IMG/VR virus record: IMGVR_UViG_3300046727_000323
Location: 1-49,562 of that record
Length of the DNA stretch: 49,562 nt
Strand: one strand, 5' to 3'
DNA from: a virus
Under the pieces are notes generated by a model. That model was not told the origin of the DNA, ran no database searches, and saw nothing but the letters and a program-made list of their open reading frames with translations. A program made the translations under genes and the position numbers. How positions within the stretch are numbered: position 1 is the first letter of the stretch; each line of letters opens with the position of its first letter. Of this stretch, positions 19,737 through 29,953 are shown piece by piece.

Positions 19737-22700
19737 ATGAGCCGCATCGCCGATCGCGCAGACCTCGGTTACTTCCCGCTGCAGGACTTCGCAGCGGCGC
19801 AGAACGGGGTGCCTGTGTCAGTGCGGCAGTCGATTGCGGGCGCGCGCATCGTCACGCTCACGAACCCGACGCGCACGCAGAGCAGCGACTCGCTGTGGGT
19901 TGAGGTCGGCCAGGAGAACGGCATGGGGACCATCGGGGATATCCACCCGTGGTTCTTCTGGCAGACGCGCGACCGCTCGGTGCGCGGCATGGGCGCCTGG
20001 GCGCAAGTCTTCGGCACGGTGCAGTTGTCGACCGCCGACCGCTACGCCGGCGTCTCGCAGCCGATCCGCGACCGGTTGTTCAACAACGACTCGCGCTTCG
20101 TGCGGAAGGCGCTGTCGTGGCCCGTCGGCTTCCAGTCGCGCCCGCGCGGCGCGCTGCTGCTCGGCATCGGCGGCACCGAGGAGAGCGCGCAGCATTCGCT
20201 GGCGATGTGGGCCGACCCGCGGCTGATCGCGCCGAGCGCCAACGGCCCGGGCGAGTGCGGCACGCTGGTCGTCGACCTGCAGCCCACCGGCGAGATCTGC
20301 ATGGGCGGCAGCACCACTCCCGGAGTGGGCGGACGGCACGCGCGGTTGCAGTCGCTCGTGCGCGTCATCACCGGCGGCAACTCGGCCGTCTTCGACCGCA
20401 ACGTCCTGGCCCTCAACTACTCGCTGTCGGTGCAGGACTCGATCGCCGGCCTTGGCGCCATCTTCGCGCAGGTCGTCGGCGGCGTCGCCACCGGCGGAGG
20501 GGGCAGCGGCCCGGTGACGCCCAACGGCCCGCCGCCGCCGAGCACGCCGGGTACGCCGAATGGCCCCGTCACGCCGAACGGCGGGTCACTGAACGCAGTC
20601 AGCACTGGTGGCGGCAGCAACGCCGGCACGTACGGCGCCGGCCTGACGACCGACGGCAGCGGCAGCGGCGAGCAGACGCCCAACAGCTTCGGCACGTTCT
20701 CGCCGACGCGCACCGGCGGGCACGCCGTCGCCCTCATGGCCGCGATGCGCGGCTACGGGCCGATCCACGCCGGCCACCAAGCCGACAAGCACAACCACGG
20801 CGTCGACGGCGATGGGCACCCGGTCAACTCCGCGCACGTCAGCACCGGCGCCTACTTCTTCCGCGACCGGAACTACGACGGGCCGCTGTTCTTCGAGGGG
20901 GACTACCCGTTCCCGCCGTCCTACCCGCTGACGTCGAAGGTCCACCTGACGTGGAACAAGATCGCGCAGCACGCCTTCGCCAAGGGGCCGCGCGATGGCC
21001 TGTGGATGTGGTTCGCGGAGGTTCCGTACTACTCGCCGACGACCACTCCGGGCACCCCGTCGACCCCTGGCACGCCTTCCACGCCCGGCACTCCGCCCCC
21101 TCCGGGTCCAGGCACCCCCACCACGCCCGGCCCAGGCGGCCCTGTCACGCCACCACCGCCCCCGCCGGGCGGCCCGGGTGGTCCCGCTACCGGCGGTCCT
21201 CCCGTTCCTGGCGGGCCTACGACCCCTGGAGCGGGCACGCCGCCCCCCGGCGGGCCACCGCCTCCGGGATTGCCTGCCCCGACGACGCCGTGGGCAGGCC
21301 CCCCGACGTGGGGCGGCCCGCCGCCCCCGGGCGGCGGCAGGATCCCCGGCGGCCCCACGACCCCGAACGGCGGCCCTCCGCCCGACCCCGGTGGCGGCGA
21401 CGACCCGGTGCCCGGCCAGCGGACCGGCGGCGGCAGCGACCCGGCGCAGCGCCCCGCCGGCGGCGGCCGCGCACGTCCCCCAGACCCGAACAACCCCGAC
21501 GACCCGGCCAACCGCGGCGGCAGCCCCACTGGTTCCATGCGCCTCGGCAGCGGCGCCGTCAGCGGCAACACACGCCGCAGCACGACACAGGTCGTGCTCA
21601 ACCAGCAGCCCGGCACCGACCCGTGGTCGGGCGAGTCGAACCGCATCCCCGGACTCGTCGAGCGCGTCGGCGGCATTGAGTCCACGGCCGTCGGTCTCTA
21701 CTCGATCCTGCACCCGTTCCACGAGGCGTTCGCCGCGATCGCGTTCCGGCCGCAACTCTGGCTGAACAACTCGACGCGCTTCGAGACGAACCCGCAGGTC
21801 CCCGCCGTGCTGGTGCAGCGCGACGAGCTGGTGCGCCCGCAGGTGCTCGCCATGCGCGCGTGGGGCGGTCAGAGCCTCGCGTCCGGTGACTACACCTACG
21901 TCCAGCCCCCGTCGACCAGTCGCGCGCGCGGCGGCACCGCCAACGGCGGTGTCATGTTCATGCCGCCGCGGTTCGAGATGGAGGACTACTACGGCGTCAA
22001 CTCCGCGCTGTCGGTCACGGCGACGACGGGCGCGAACGCCACGTCGTCCTACGTACTGGCGGCGCCGGGCGTCGCCTTCGCGCTCGGCCTGCCGCGGGCC
22101 GACGGCACGCTGCTGGCGAACGCCGTCACGATCGCGCAGGACTACACGGTGGGCGCGCAGCCGCTGGTGGTGCGGCACAACTCGACCGAGATCGTCCGCG
22201 GCTACGACAACGGCACCGACGTCGTCGTCGAGCTGGGTCAGGGCGGGCATGGTGCCGTCCGCATCCCGACCGGCACGACGGCGCAGCGTCCCGCGGCCGC
22301 ATCCGGGCTGGTCCGCATCAACACCAGCGGCGCGAACCACGTCGTCGAGTTCTACGACACCGTGTCCGCGGCCTGGGTGACGCTCAGCTCAGGCGGCGGT
22401 GGCGGCACGACGATCCAGGTCAACGGCGGCGCGGTAAGCCCGACGGCGAACTGGAACGGCACGACGCCGGCCGCTCCTGCGGGCGCGCTGAACGCCGTCT
22501 ACGCGAACAGCGGCGCGAACATCTCGTGCTCCATCTCCGCGACGGGCCTGCTCGACGTGCTCGGCTCGACGCGCGGCTCCGTGCTCTACCGTGGGGCGTC
22601 TGGGTGGGCGGCGCTGACTCCCGGCACGTCGGGGCAGTTCCTGACGGCGAACGGCGCCGGCACCGACCCGACGTGGACCACCGCGGCCGGCGGCGGCACG

Positions 22701-23498
22701 ACGATCCAGGTCAACGGCTCGACGATCAGCCCGACGGCGAACTGGCGCGACGGCACGCCGGCCGCCCCGGCCGGGGCGCTCAACGCCTTGTGGCAGGTCA
22801 GCGGCAGCAGCATCTCGTGCAACATAGGCGCATCGGCGCTGCTCGCCGTCCTCAGCACGACGCGCGGCGAGATCCTCTACTACAACGGCTCGGCATGGAC
22901 GGCGCTCGGCGTCGGGTCGAGCGGCCAGTACCTGCAGACCCGCGGCGCCGGCAACGACCCGCGCTGGTTCAGCGCGCAACCGCTCTACGCCAGCCAGACG
23001 TCCGTCGCCGGCGGCGACACGGTCACCAACAGCGCGGCGGCGACGACGTTCGCGACGACGAAGACGATCGCCGCGGCGCTCGCGAACACCGTCGGCACGA
23101 TGATCCGCGTCACTGCATCGGGCACGATGGTCACGCAGGCCGGTAGCAGCACGCAGAAGTTCGAGCTGATGCTGGCCGGCGCCTCGGTGGCGTCGACCGG
23201 AGCGATGACCGTCGGCAAGTCGCTGACGCTCGCGTGGCGACTCGTCTGCGAGATCGTCGTCGACACGACCGGCGCCACAGGCACGGTGGACGTGCAGGGT
23301 ACCTGCTGGATGGGCAACGCGACGGCTGCGGCCGGCACCGCGGGCGTCATCGGCACGCTCGGCAACACCGCGACGTCGACCGTCGACCTGACGGGCAGCT
23401 TGTCGATCGGCATCCGCGAGACGATGGGCAACGCTACGGCCTCGTGGTCGGTGACGCAGCGGCAACTGAACGTCGAACTCCTCACGGTGGCGCCATGA
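19737..23498 (+). CDS. Large tail fibre with Pro/Gly-rich stalk and tandem repeats
   Basis: 1253 residues, four bases after the hub gene. Order: N-terminal attachment domain (1-240); VTPNG-type linkers (about 255-285); a His-rich stretch with HAGHQADKHNHGVDGDGH near residue 345; a Pro/Gly/Thr-rich stalk (about 434-590) with runs such as TPGTPSTPGTPSTPGT; a globular region (590-880); two tandem 97-residue repeats starting GTTIQVNG near 888 and 985, each containing a GW/WTAL-GxxGQ(F/Y)L-GAG-DP pattern common in phage fibres; and a beta-rich C-terminal domain. It is a receptor-binding or tail-tip fibre. The next gene starts inside its stop (ATGA). Confidence 0.72.
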   Translation: MSRIADRADLGYFPLQDFAAAQNGVPVSVRQSIAGARIVTLTNPTRTQSSDSLWVEVGQENGMGTIGDIHPWFFWQTRDRSVRGMGAWAQVFGTVQLSTADRYAGVSQPIRDRLFNNDSRFVRKALSWPVGFQSRPRGALLLGIGGTEESAQHSLAMWADPRLIAPSANGPGECGTLVVDLQPTGEICMGGSTTPGVGGRHARLQSLVRVITGGNSAVFDRNVLALNYSLSVQDSIAGLGAIFAQVVGGVATGGGGSGPVTPNGPPPPSTPGTPNGPVTPNGGSLNAVSTGGGSNAGTYGAGLTTDGSGSGEQTPNSFGTFSPTRTGGHAVALMAAMRGYGPIHAGHQADKHNHGVDGDGHPVNSAHVSTGAYFFRDRNYDGPLFFEGDYPFPPSYPLTSKVHLTWNKIAQHAFAKGPRDGLWMWFAEVPYYSPTTTPGTPSTPGTPSTPGTPPPPGPGTPTTPGPGGPVTPPPPPPGGPGGPATGGPPVPGGPTTPGAGTPPPGGPPPPGLPAPTTPWAGPPTWGGPPPPGGGRIPGGPTTPNGGPPPDPGGGDDPVPGQRTGGGSDPAQRPAGGGRARPPDPNNPDDPANRGGSPTGSMRLGSGAVSGNTRRSTTQVVLNQQPGTDPWSGESNRIPGLVERVGGIESTAVGLYSILHPFHEAFAAIAFRPQLWLNNSTRFETNPQVPAVLVQRDELVRPQVLAMRAWGGQSLASGDYTYVQPPSTSRARGGTANGGVMFMPPRFEMEDYYGVNSALSVTATTGANATSSYVLAAPGVAFALGLPRADGTLLANAVTIAQDYTVGAQPLVVRHNSTEIVRGYDNGTDVVVELGQGGHGAVRIPTGTTAQRPAAASGLVRINTSGANHVVEFYDTVSAAWVTLSSGGGGGTTIQVNGGAVSPTANWNGTTPAAPAGALNAVYANSGANISCSISATGLLDVLGSTRGSVLYRGASGWAALTPGTSGQFLTANGAGTDPTWTTAAGGGTTIQVNGSTISPTANWRDGTPAAPAGALNALWQVSGSSISCNIGASALLAVLSTTRGEILYYNGSAWTALGVGSSGQYLQTRGAGNDPRWFSAQPLYASQTSVAGGDTVTNSAAATTFATTKTIAAALANTVGTMIRVTASGTMVTQAGSSTQKFELMLAGASVASTGAMTVGKSLTLAWRLVCEIVVDTTGATGTVDVQGTCWMGNATAAAGTAGVIGTLGNTATSTVDLTGSLSIGIRETMGNATASWSVTQRQLNVELLTVAP
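22401..22982 (+). repeat. Two tandem 291-bp coding repeats in the fibre gene
   Basis: The segments beginning at 22401 and 22692 both open GGCGGCACGACGATCCAGGT and run for 291 bp (97 codons). They encode the same order: TTIQVNG, SPTANW, TPAAPAGALNA, ISC, LYxxxSxWxAL and GQ(F/Y)L...GAGxDP. Divergence between copies shows the duplication is not recent. Confidence 0.75.
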
Positions 23499-25513: not shown

Positions 25514-25561
25514 TCGTTGCGCGCCAGCAGCGCAGCGGTAGGCTCCTGATTGCGCATGGTT

Positions 25562-25581
25562 GGCCCCTTTGGCTGGGGGCC
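25562..25581 (+). terminator. GC hairpin downstream of the lysis-region genes
   Basis: GGCCCC (25562-25567) pairs with GGGGCC (25576-25581) around an 8-base loop. It lies about 50 bases after the last stop codon and about 30 bases before a second hairpin. There is no clear T-run after it, so it may be one half of a tandem termination region. Confidence 0.4.
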
Positions 25582-25608
25582 TGACTTGACTCCGATGGAT
25601 GCAGAGGA

Positions 25609-25640
25609 GCCGGCCGGCCCTGACGAGAGAGCCGGCCGGC
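25609..25640 (+). terminator. Strong hairpin with short T-tract
   Basis: GCCGGCCGGC occurs at 25609-25618 and again at 25631-25640. The decamer is its own reverse complement, so the two copies form a 10-bp stem with a 12-base loop. ATTTCCC follows directly. This is the best intrinsic-terminator candidate in the window and separates the late structural/lysis genes from the accessory pair at 25665-26113. The gap 25514-25664 holds nothing else that I can see. Confidence 0.6.
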
Positions 25641-25664
25641 ATTTCCCTCGAAGGAACCCGCCCG

Positions 25665-25907
25665 ATGACCGACTCCGAACCCCTCCCCGTGGCCGACGAC
25701 GGCGTCAGCCACCCGATCCTCGTCGGCCCGGCGCCGACCCCCGAGGCGGACGCCATGGCCCGCGCGCGGGCGTGCGGCTTGGAGATCGACGCCGCGCTGC
25801 TGAAGCACCGCTGCGCGCTCGTCAGCGCGCTCAGCTCCGAGCAGGTCGGCACCGACGGCTCGAAGGTGCTGATCACCGCGCGCCCGAACGTCGTGCCGCT
25901 CCGATGA
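25665..25907 (+). CDS. Small unknown protein upstream of the Acb2-like gene
   Basis: 80 residues from ATG 25665, with AAGGAACCCGCCCG upstream. The N-terminal 35 residues are acidic and Pro-rich (EPLPVADDGVSHPILVGPAP). The C-terminal half is helical, with ADAMARARACGLEID and ALLKHRCALVSALSS and two cysteines, ending in a beta strand SKVLITARPNVVPL. The stop overlaps the next gene's ATG, so the pair is co-translated. Family not recognised. Confidence 0.65.
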   Translation: MTDSEPLPVADDGVSHPILVGPAPTPEADAMARARACGLEIDAALLKHRCALVSALSSEQVGTDGSKVLITARPNVVPLR

Positions 25908-26113
25908 ACACCTTCCCCGTCCTGAAGTTCTTCGAGTTCGCGCACCTGCCGGCACACCTGCAGGACGTCAGCCGCGACTTCCACGCGCTGGCGCAGAAGA
26001 CTGCGAACCGCGCCAGCAACCACCCGTCCTCGATCTCGCAGACGGAGCATGCGCTGCACAAGCTGCTCGAAGCGAAGGACTGCGCGGTGCGCGCGATGCT
26101 GCCGACGTCCTAG
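25904..26113 (+). CDS. Acb2/Tad1-type hairpin-domain protein (anti-CBASS/anti-Thoeris candidate)
   Basis: 69 residues from ATG 25904 (ATGA overlap). The pattern KFFEFAHLPAHLQDVSRDFH near residue 8 and LHKLLEAKDCAVRAML at the C-terminus matches the phage helical-hairpin family in which Acb2 and Tad1 sponge proteins are placed. Family members oligomerise and trap cyclic nucleotide signals made by CBASS or Thoeris defence. The ligand of this copy cannot be read from sequence, and many homologues are untested. It sits at the end of a rightward unit, convergent with the leftward genes starting 16 bases away. Confidence 0.65.
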   Translation: MNTFPVLKFFEFAHLPAHLQDVSRDFHALAQKTANRASNHPSSISQTEHALHKLLEAKDCAVRAMLPTS

Positions 26114-27304: not shown

Positions 27305-27429
27305 CGGATGTACCCGCAGGTGGCGAGGTCGTCGGCGCAGCCGAGCGCCAAGCCGACCGCCGCCGCCGCGATCAGCAGGAACAGCGCAGCGTCGCGGAGT
27401 GCCGACGTGCGGAAAAACTTGGTCTGCAT
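27301..27429 (-). CDS. 42-aa membrane peptide/lipoprotein candidate
   Basis: A 42-codon leftward gene from ATG 27429, the first of the leftward unit. It begins MQTKFFRTSALRDA, then a hydrophobic core ALFLLIAAAAVGLALGC (Cys at residue 31 with Gly at -1), and ends ATCGYIR. It is either a single-span peptide or a short lipoprotein. Its stop overlaps the next ATG (27304) by ATGA, which supports expression. Confidence 0.55.
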   Translation of the reverse strand: MQTKFFRTSALRDAALFLLIAAAAVGLALGCADDLATCGYIR

Positions 27430-27467
27430 GGTGGCGCATTCTCAAACATTTGCCTATATTATCAAGC
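27430..27467. promoter_or_regulatory. 38-bp AT-rich divergent promoter region
   Basis: The only space between the leftward gene starting at 27429 and the rightward gene starting at 27468. It contains TCAAACAT (27442-27449), TATATT (27455-27460) and TATTAT (27457-27462). TATTAT would put a rightward transcription start at or next to ATG 27468, giving a leaderless message. On the other strand GATAAT (27464-27459) could serve leftward transcription. No consensus -35 is seen on either strand. Confidence 0.45.
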
Positions 27468-27887
27468 ATGGAACAACAGAAAAAGTCGATTCTCGAAGAA
27501 GCCGCAGAACTGACCCGCGGACCGCGCGCCGCGGCCTACGGCACGCCGGCGGAGAACCACGGCCGCACGGCGGCGCTGTGGTCGGCCTACCTAGGCGTCA
27601 GCATCAGCGCCCGCGACGTCTGCATGCTGAACGTGCTGCAGAAGCTCAGCCGCGACCGGCACTCCCCGGGGCGCGACAACCTCGTCGACGTCGCCGGCTA
27701 CGCCGAGAACGCGGACCGCTGCGGAGCCCTGCGTTTTCTACCGCTGAAGGCGACCGTGCCTGTCGTATGCCACATCTGCGGGGCCGCGGCCCGCGAAGGT
27801 TCCGGCGTCGGCGACGGCCCTATGTGCCTCGCGTGCGCGCGGAACTTCGTGTCGAAGCTGGAACCGCTGGACGACGGCGACCGCTAA
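27468..27887 (+). CDS. DUF6378-like protein with C-terminal zinc ribbon
   Basis: 139 residues from ATG 27468. Residues 8-85 follow the DUF6378 pattern: RAAAYGTPAENHGRTAALW, then ARDVCMLNVLQKLSRDRH and DNLVDVAGYAENADR. A C-terminal zinc ribbon is added: CHICGAAA near residue 101 and CLACARNF near residue 122. The gene stands alone on this strand, and its last four bases overlap the end of the leftward polymerase gene. The role of DUF6378 is unknown to me; in phages it is often near replication genes. Confidence 0.65.
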   Translation: MEQQKKSILEEAAELTRGPRAAAYGTPAENHGRTAALWSAYLGVSISARDVCMLNVLQKLSRDRHSPGRDNLVDVAGYAENADRCGALRFLPLKATVPVVCHICGAAAREGSGVGDGPMCLACARNFVSKLEPLDDGDR

Positions 27888-29953
27888 CCCCTGAACCGTC
27901 GGTCGCGCCAGCCTTCCGCCGCCACCGGGCACCCCGCAGCCCAGGGCGGTGCCGCCGCTAGCCGGTCCGCGAAATCGCGCGGGTCGCCCGCCCCCTCCGG
28001 CACCTCCGCCGCCGCGGAGTCGTGGACGTGGATCACCAGCTCGTAGGGTGCCACGCCGTCGAGCTGCACGAGGCCCGCGGCCAGCAGCTCGCGCGCCACC
28101 GCCTGGGTCGCGTTCTCCGCCAGTTTGCCGCCGTAGGTCGTCTCCGCGACCATGGCGCCGCGCGCCGGCTTCCAGAACTGCAGCTCCTCGCGCGTCACCG
28201 ACTTCTGCACCTGCTTGCCCTCGTCGTCGACGAGCTGGAAAACGCGCGTCTTCAGCACGATGGACGGCTGCCAGTATCGTATGCATCTGCCGCTCGGCAG
28301 GCGCATCAGCAGGATCTTGCCGGTGGACCTGAACGACACGCGCCCGGCTCGGTGCTTGCTGCCGGGCTCCAGCACGGCCGCGAAGGCGGCGTCCTCAAGG
28401 TCGCGCCACCACTGCGCGATGCAGCGGTTCACGAGACGCCAGGACAGCTTCACCTGCCGCGCGCGCAGCAGCGTCAGCGGCACGCCCCACTTCGCAGCGG
28501 TGCCGGCGAACGTCACGTCGCCCATGCCGTACTGCAGCGCCAGCGCCGCGACCTTGCCGAGCTGCCGCTCGTCGCTGTCGATGGACTCGGCCGTGAAGAC
28601 GTAGAAGTCCTTCGGCTTGCCGCCGGCGCGCCGCTGCGCGTCGAACTCTTGGAAGAACTGCACGACGTCATCCTGGCCGGCGAGCCACGCGCACACCCGG
28701 GCCTCGATCGCCGAGAAGTCGGCGCCGATCAGCTCGCGCCCCGGTGGCGCCACGACCACGGAGCGCAGCATCTGCGACAGCGCTTCCAGCGGCCGCGCCT
28801 CAGCCATCTCCAGCGCCTGCGAGTCCTCCGCCTCGACGAGATCGCGCACCAGCGCCGAGGCGGCGGCGGTGAGCTGGTTCTTTGGCAGATTGTGGAGCTG
28901 CAACCCCTCGCTGGTCCACCGGCCGGTGTGCGCGCCGCAGTAGCTCAGCGCGAAGCGCAGGCGCCCGTCGGTGCCGACCATCGGCTCGACGCGGTTCAAC
29001 TTCGCCAGCGACGCGGCCTTGCTGGCCTCGGCGCGGTTGCGCAGCATCTGCCGCACGTCGTCCGGCAGCTCGCCGCGCAGCAGCTCGACGACGGCCAACT
29101 TGTCGATCGTCTCGGTCTTGTGGTAGCTGCCGTTCTTCTTTTTGCGCGTGCGCTTCGGCAGCACGACGCCGCGGTACTTGAGCCAAGACATCAGCGCCGG
29201 CGCCGCGGTGGACCTGCTGACTTCTGACGTCGTAGCCTTCCGCACTTCACGCTCCAGCACCTGCTGCCGCGCCTCGGCCATGCGCCGCAGCTTGCCGGCG
29301 AACGCTTGGTCGAGCAGCGCGCCGCGCTCGTTGATGCGCTGGTCAGTGACCCACACCCGGTGCTCCTGCACCGACAGCTTCGGCAGCGCGTAGTAGGCGT
29401 CGAGTGTCGCGGCGACGTCGGCCTTGCAGTAGTCGGACAGCCGGCGGAGCTGGACCTGCGACACCGTGGGGTAGTCCCAACCGCGGATGCTCGGCGTCGC
29501 GACGGCGAGCTTCATCATCAGCGCCGCGCCCTCGGCGTCCTTCTGGTGCGGCACGCCGAGCGCCTTGCAGAGCCCCGCCAGCGACCGCGGCAGGTTCACG
29601 GCCTGCGCCATGGCCTGCGTGTCGCGCCACTGCTCAGTCGGGATGGCGGGCCAGCCGTGCCGCGGCGTAAGGATGTTCGCGCAAATCGACTTCTCGAAGG
29701 ATGCGTTGTGGGCGATCAGCACGCCGCCGGCGGCGAGGTAGTCCAGGATCGCCGCCGGCAACCTGCGCGCGGGGAACCACCGGACGTAGGTGCGCGGCGC
29801 GCGCGGGCCGGTGACGTAGCCGAAGACCGCGCAGTGCACGCGCGTCGACGGGTGCTGCGAGTAGGCCCAGGCGCCGTAGGTGATGTCGTGGGCGCTGCAC
29901 GTCTCGACGTCGAGCGACAGGACCCCGGCGTGCGCGTCGAAGGTCAGTTCCAC
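27884..29953 (-). CDS. DNA polymerase, family A, with 3'-5' exonuclease domain
   Basis: 689 residues from GTG 29953. The exonuclease domain has LSLDVET (Asp15/Glu17), LIAHNASFEKS near residue 80 and YCKADVAATLDAYY near 175. The polymerase domain has HTGRWTSEGLQLHNLPK near 340, motif A LIGADFSAIEARV (Asp near 412), the O-helix RQLGKVAALALQYGMG near 466, and motif C VIHVHDSAAAE (His-Asp near 644). All catalytic acidic residues I can place are present. It replicates the phage genome. It is translated after the DUF3820 gene (10-base overlap) and ends convergently with the DUF6378 gene. Confidence 0.92.
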   Translation of the reverse strand: MELTFDAHAGVLSLDVETCSAHDITYGAWAYSQHPSTRVHCAVFGYVTGPRAPRTYVRWFPARRLPAAILDYLAAGGVLIAHNASFEKSICANILTPRHGWPAIPTEQWRDTQAMAQAVNLPRSLAGLCKALGVPHQKDAEGAALMMKLAVATPSIRGWDYPTVSQVQLRRLSDYCKADVAATLDAYYALPKLSVQEHRVWVTDQRINERGALLDQAFAGKLRRMAEARQQVLEREVRKATTSEVSRSTAAPALMSWLKYRGVVLPKRTRKKKNGSYHKTETIDKLAVVELLRGELPDDVRQMLRNRAEASKAASLAKLNRVEPMVGTDGRLRFALSYCGAHTGRWTSEGLQLHNLPKNQLTAAASALVRDLVEAEDSQALEMAEARPLEALSQMLRSVVVAPPGRELIGADFSAIEARVCAWLAGQDDVVQFFQEFDAQRRAGGKPKDFYVFTAESIDSDERQLGKVAALALQYGMGDVTFAGTAAKWGVPLTLLRARQVKLSWRLVNRCIAQWWRDLEDAAFAAVLEPGSKHRAGRVSFRSTGKILLMRLPSGRCIRYWQPSIVLKTRVFQLVDDEGKQVQKSVTREELQFWKPARGAMVAETTYGGKLAENATQAVARELLAAGLVQLDGVAPYELVIHVHDSAAAEVPEGAGDPRDFADRLAAAPPWAAGCPVAAEGWRDRRFRG

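Follow-up and report, generated by a model that had tools for sequence, protein, structure and literature searches.

The 69-aa protein P0001 is encoded at positions 25904-26113 (+ strand) of the window, i.e. the whole 49,562-base virus record analysed here (IMG/VR IMGVR_UViG_3300046727_000323). It is probably a divergent sponge of the Acb2/Tad1 helical-hairpin superfamily, belonging to a large branch (phrog_1761/phrog_5120) that the databases do not recognise. The computed basis for this reading comprises a conserved gene, a predicted helical hairpin, the homology of its family to a bona fide branch of the superfamily and an association with Tad2-like and Acb2-type genes. The oligomer, the ligand, the sequestration and the anti-defence effect are those that we infer for P0001: several copies would assemble into a small oligomer, as Acb2 does in its homo-hexamer, with inter-subunit pockets that would take up a nucleotide by which a host defence system raises the alarm. 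This signal would be kept from its effector, so that infected cells might survive long enough for phage production.

A small conserved gene and its family

P0001 (MNTFPVLKFFEFAHLPAHLQDVSRDFHALAQKTANRASNHPSSISQTEHALHKLLEAKDCAVRAMLPTS) has a counterpart about 90% identical to it in a second phage contig, L001, with the two copies differing by seven synonymous and seven non-synonymous codons, and its relatives were found by tblastn to be encoded in 287 phage records, so the ORF is a genuine, conserved gene and not a chance reading frame. Among the PHROG profiles it matches phrog_1761 at 2.1e-20 and phrog_5120 at 1.4e-12 and is thus a member of this family, both entries being annotated as of unknown function. 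The phages harboring relatives include those of Vibrio, Erwinia, Acinetobacter, Brevibacterium, Gordonia and Mycobacterium, and a pattern scan confirmed the family in more than 570 viral contigs. According to the record titles, family loci are also located on bacterial genome contigs (many of them metagenome bins) from more than ten phyla, including Pseudomonadota, Actinomycetota, Planctomycetota, Bacteroidota, Cyanobacteriota, Bdellovibrionota, Gemmatimonadota, Verrucomicrobiota, Chloroflexota, Acidobacteriota, Myxococcota and others.

In the alignment of 129 family members, H14, L15, P16, L19, A30, E56 and K58 are conserved at 100% and F10, D59, V62 and R63 at 99%, while position 12 is aromatic (Y in 73% and F in 20%), the signature [YF]-x-H-L-P thus occupying residues 12-16 (25937-25951, + strand). 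The AlphaFold2 model of P0001, built with 70 family sequences (pLDDT 94, pTM 0.80), consists of a predicted short N-terminal helix at residues 5-10 (25916-25933), helix 2 at residues 17-39 (25952-26020) and helix 3 at residues 41-64 (26024-26095, all on the + strand), the last of which carries the near-invariant motif KLLEAKDxxVRA (K53-A64). P0001 departs from the family at R52, which is replaced with His, and differs from phrog_1761 and phrog_5120 in a 4-residue insertion (residues 41-44, 26024-26035, + strand) which, according to the family alignment, is almost confined to the window phage and L001. The insertion between the helices claimed earlier comes down to these four extra residues, which almost no other member has, the rest of the stretch then quoted being mostly ordinary helix. 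The long loop that the claim implied does not appear in the predicted model, where helix 17-39 is followed directly by helix 41-64. Some members of the family have an extra N-terminal region (L014:4788-5237; BFVD A0A6G6XYP8), and one such protein, from Ochrobactrum phage vB_OspP_OH, was named Anti-TRAP domain-containing protein.

Relationship to the Acb2/Tad1 hairpin superfamily

The original prediction, which took P0001 for an Acb2/Tad1-type sponge, had proposed a profile search against the hairpin family as its check and named a missing match as the outcome speaking against it. The PF24729 profile (Acb2_Tad1_hairpin, curated cut-off of 27 bits) does not match P0001, and of 18 relatives only the best reaches E=0.061, with T4 Vs.4 as the positive control matching at 71 bits. 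When the family profile was compared with classical Acb2 (PaMx33, T4 Vs.4) using HHalign, the probability was about 0.6-1%, and direct sequence searches of Pfam, NCBIfam and PDB revealed no sponge match. A comparably weak match to archaeal Dps (4e-4, HMMER) and those to occludin-like and designed-repeat proteins were dismissed as helical background. Family profile A7 also matches phage Gp22 (PDB 8jaj chain a, residues 426-471) with an E-value of 0.0014, which was not supported by the fold searches.

The connection with the superfamily runs through the phrog_1454 branch. The representative of this branch is gp101 of mycobacteriophage Xandras, which PMC11953737 describes as an Acb2-type protein. 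It matches phrog_1454 at 1.3e-29 and scores 59 bits against PF24729 (E 5e-16), and the branch alignment was composed of its relatives (L410-L489). In sequence searches the branch profile matches the PDB entry 9ptq ('Acb2 homolog 43 with 3'cADPR') at 5.6e-12 and Tad1 at 2e-4. Several members of the P0001 family match phrog_1454 with E-values from 2e-4 to 9e-3, similar to that of T4 Vs.4 (7e-4), and the alignment coordinates place both the Arg in helix 3 of Vs.4 and the equivalent position of the family in phrog_1454 column 71. The HHalign comparison of the family with the branch gave a probability of 91% and an E-value of 9.6e-7 (93.8% and 1.8e-7 with another selection of family members), above the match between classical Acb2 and the same branch (score 23, probability 31%, E 5e-4). 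P0001 by itself does not match the branch profile (E 1.6), so the remote homology is that of the family as a whole. Taken together, these profile comparisons support the phrog_1761/phrog_5120 family as a remote homologue of the Acb2/Tad1 hairpin superfamily.

Short helical proteins are prone to spurious matches, as the designed repeats, Dps and Gp22 illustrate, and no significant fold match to Acb2 was obtained, both of which would fit an unrelated helical hairpin resembling the sponges by convergence. The controls make this quite improbable, as the family scores 37.3 against the branch, whereas 150 column-shuffled profiles score at most 16.6, the reversed profile 8.4 and an unrelated phage helical hairpin 20.4. 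The matches are reciprocal as well: at E<=0.01 the branch HMM finds 97 of the 129 family members but not one of the 2,580 shuffled or 129 reversed sequences, and the family HMM matches 60 of the 68 branch members.

Foldseek detected no Acb2 in PDB at E<=10 with the P0001 model. Among BFVD models the top matches, 24-43% identical, look like members of its own family, and an Acb2/Tad1 hairpin protein occupies rank 12 with a non-significant E-value of 2.8. When the search was calibrated with a model of a bona fide branch member, 9ptq was found at E 0.03 and T4 Vs.4 only at E 3.6, so true superfamily members can be weak in Foldseek too and the negative result for P0001 in PDB is weak evidence either way. 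In the reported Acb2 protomer, a short N-helix is accompanied by two long helices that run antiparallel (PMC10419184), and the AlphaFold2 model predicts that P0001 shares this plan.

The family resembles classical Acb2 (PaMx33/PaP2 p26; T4 Vs.4) in its predicted short N-helix, two antiparallel helices and the position of the helix-3 Arg, and differs from it in the missing direct profile and PF24729 matches and in the apparent replacement of the Lys of the di-nucleotide pocket. With the phrog_1454/'Acb2 homolog 43' branch it shares a similar length, a profile-profile match spanning helices 2 and 3 and a helix 3 aligned without gaps (LPxGxEK...KLxEA). Unlike the branch, it has LEAKDCxVR in place of EEAMFWAN in helix 3, a replacement of the Arg of GREK and an extra predicted N-terminal helix with the HLP motif. 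Compared to the C-terminal hairpin of Tad1, the family lacks the N-terminal beta domain and gives no direct match, the tie being made through the phrog_1454 branch, whose profile matches Tad1 chains.

Pocket residues, candidate ligand and significance

The residues of the classical Acb2 di-nucleotide pocket are Y11 and K26. In the remote alignment on which the comparison rests, the aromatic residue at position 12 is retained (cf. Acb2 Y11), Acb2 K26 falls on S23 of P0001 in helix 2 and Acb2 R67 on a non-basic position in the family, and classical Acb2 has no set of residues matching the near-invariant K58, D59 and R63. In the alignments used, S23 thus stands in for K26 and another residue for the Arg of the branch GREK, whereas K58, D59 and R63 hardly vary, so the pocket would be a different one, and the ligand of P0001 is likely to differ from that of classical Acb2. 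The same substitutions, along with the missing profile match to classical Acb2, make it hard to regard P0001 as an ordinary Acb2, with 3'3'-cGAMP and cyclic trinucleotides as ligands of the pockets known from PaMx33 Acb2, and we consider this very unlikely despite the same predicted protomer plan and the remote homology.

For the bridging branch, the searches brought up a single solved structure, 9ptq, and as its ligand is 3'cADPR, we lean towards ADP-ribose signals. An ADP-ribose-type Thoeris signal, bound in a pocket that differs from the PaMx33 Acb2 one, has in our estimate a little under an even chance of being the ligand, and a cyclic oligonucleotide, again in a pocket unlike that one, is a reasonable second candidate which we hold more tentatively.

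According to PMC11722364, Acb2 is relatively uncommon and confined to particular groups of phages, in contrast to the phrog_1761/phrog_5120 branch, which appears in many unrelated phages. A more far-reaching suggestion, which we regard as possible and still rather doubtful, is that this is a widespread sponge family, unrecognised so far and spread over phages from more than ten phyla of bacteria, with an altered pocket (K58, D59, R63) for the capture of an immune nucleotide which the known Acb2, Tad1 and Tad2 bind poorly or not at all. A new ligand would be a pointer to a host signal or a defence system. Small phage families of unknown function are a main reservoir of undiscovered counter-defence, and this one, present in hundreds of phages as well as at prophage-like loci throughout the bacteria and linked with nucleotide sponges by its remote homology and its gene neighbours, provides a shortlist of purifiable proteins of 60-70 aa for direct ligand screening.

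Gene neighbourhood

About 150 records with a family member were searched whole for Tad2-like genes (PF11195), and such a gene was found above the cut-off in eight distinct records. In six of these eight it lies within 1 kb of the family member on the same strand (L040, L093, L102, L273, Alteromonas phage AD45-P1 and Vibrio phage 1.205). Assuming a crude uniform placement, the P value for this adjacency is 9e-7, or 3e-4 when the two records that prompted the test are left out, both values being optimistic because phage accessory genes cluster. The same adjacency to Tad2 was observed for Acb2 in 3/3 loci and for the bridging phrog_1454 branch in 4/4 loci seen, and other searches provided two more cases for the P0001 family, L389 and L537. 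The presence of a Tad2-like gene per record is no higher than in Acb2 phages (about 8/150 family records vs 3/50), so only the adjacency is informative. PF24729 genes also occur beside family members: in L002 such a gene (31.8 bits) is located directly upstream and is ATGA-coupled, and in L045 about 1.1 kb upstream. Most family members have no sponge gene nearby, and the window itself contains neither a Tad2-like nor a PF24729 gene. The membership of P0001 in the Acb2/Tad1 hairpin group, as originally predicted, is accordingly retained as a remote kinship through the phrog_1454 branch, in agreement with the protomer plan and the sponge-gene neighbours, and given up as a direct match to PF24729 or classical Acb2.

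In Vibrio phage 1.205 the family domain is fused to an N-terminal domain that usually precedes Tad2, which is weak evidence since the RGW...GYLVEY domain changes its partners readily. In most loci this mobile domain of phages (RGW..DENG..GYLVEY..GYISWSPK; noted at L318:2077-2292 (-) and L194:2258-2482) is joined to Tad2-like domains, elsewhere to another hairpin domain (LPPHQQ...), and in L372 to what appears, by eye, to be an N4 gp49/Sf6 gp66-type domain. A family member and Tad2 seemed to be fused in a single ORF of L557 (identical in sequence to L389), but this impression was produced by reading frames that overlap and the two are adjacent genes, and the 'Tad2' match in L552 is actually another hairpin domain.

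The other recurrent neighbours of family members, named by eye from sequence, look like terminase, portal, lysozyme and Rz/Rz1-like genes. Many phages place the gene between those for lysis and packaging, and in the window it is the last one in a rightward block downstream of a tail-fibre-like gene, which, together with invariant charged residues that could make a protein interface, would suit a protein of sponge ancestry with another job, e.g. a small regulator or adaptor of late phage genes. We consider such a role unlikely, as the adjoining Tad2-like and PF24729 genes point to counter-defence and the location varies widely in a manner typical of accessory genes: in Acinetobacter phage 133 the family member has rIIA and topoisomerase as neighbours, in Gordonia phage DelRio it sits between the genes for capsid and connector, and in Vibrio phage 1258 a methyltransferase is nearby. 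A sponge of the divergent branch remains our preferred assignment for P0001.

Immediately upstream of P0001 and overlapping it by ATGA, there is an ORF coding for an 80-aa protein, P0002 (25665-25907, + strand), and the two had been proposed to form a small anti-defence cassette. L001 keeps both ORFs along with the overlap. P0002 is an orphan: no relatives were detected at E<=1 in the 50,697 phage records searched, and among all the fetched loci a copy is present in L001 only, which belongs to a closely related phage. The coupling of P0001 and P0002 is consequently a local feature and the cassette is unsupported. It is extremely unlikely that the two proteins act jointly as one system, since in spite of the ATGA overlap and their joint conservation in L001 the partner lacks phage relatives and other family members have different neighbours.

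A terminator had also been placed before the gene pair. What is found there is a strong GC-rich stem-loop (25606-25655, entered as a feature at 25606-25640, + strand; -28.9 kcal/mol, z -3.6) without a U-tract, and the terminator scan upstream of the pair returned no U-tract site. Just upstream of it lies a second GC stem-loop (25556-25590, + strand) with -18 kcal/mol, z -2.1 and no clear U-tract.

Further from P0001, the window contains a 1,253-aa ORF (19737-23498, + strand) with long Pro/Gly/Thr-rich repeats, which probably codes for a tail fibre or tail-tip protein. A DUF6378 protein (27399-27887, + strand; Pfam 3e-20, with PHROG matches labelled phosphofructokinase) is encoded with leftward genes on either side, among them the long ORF 27884-29953.
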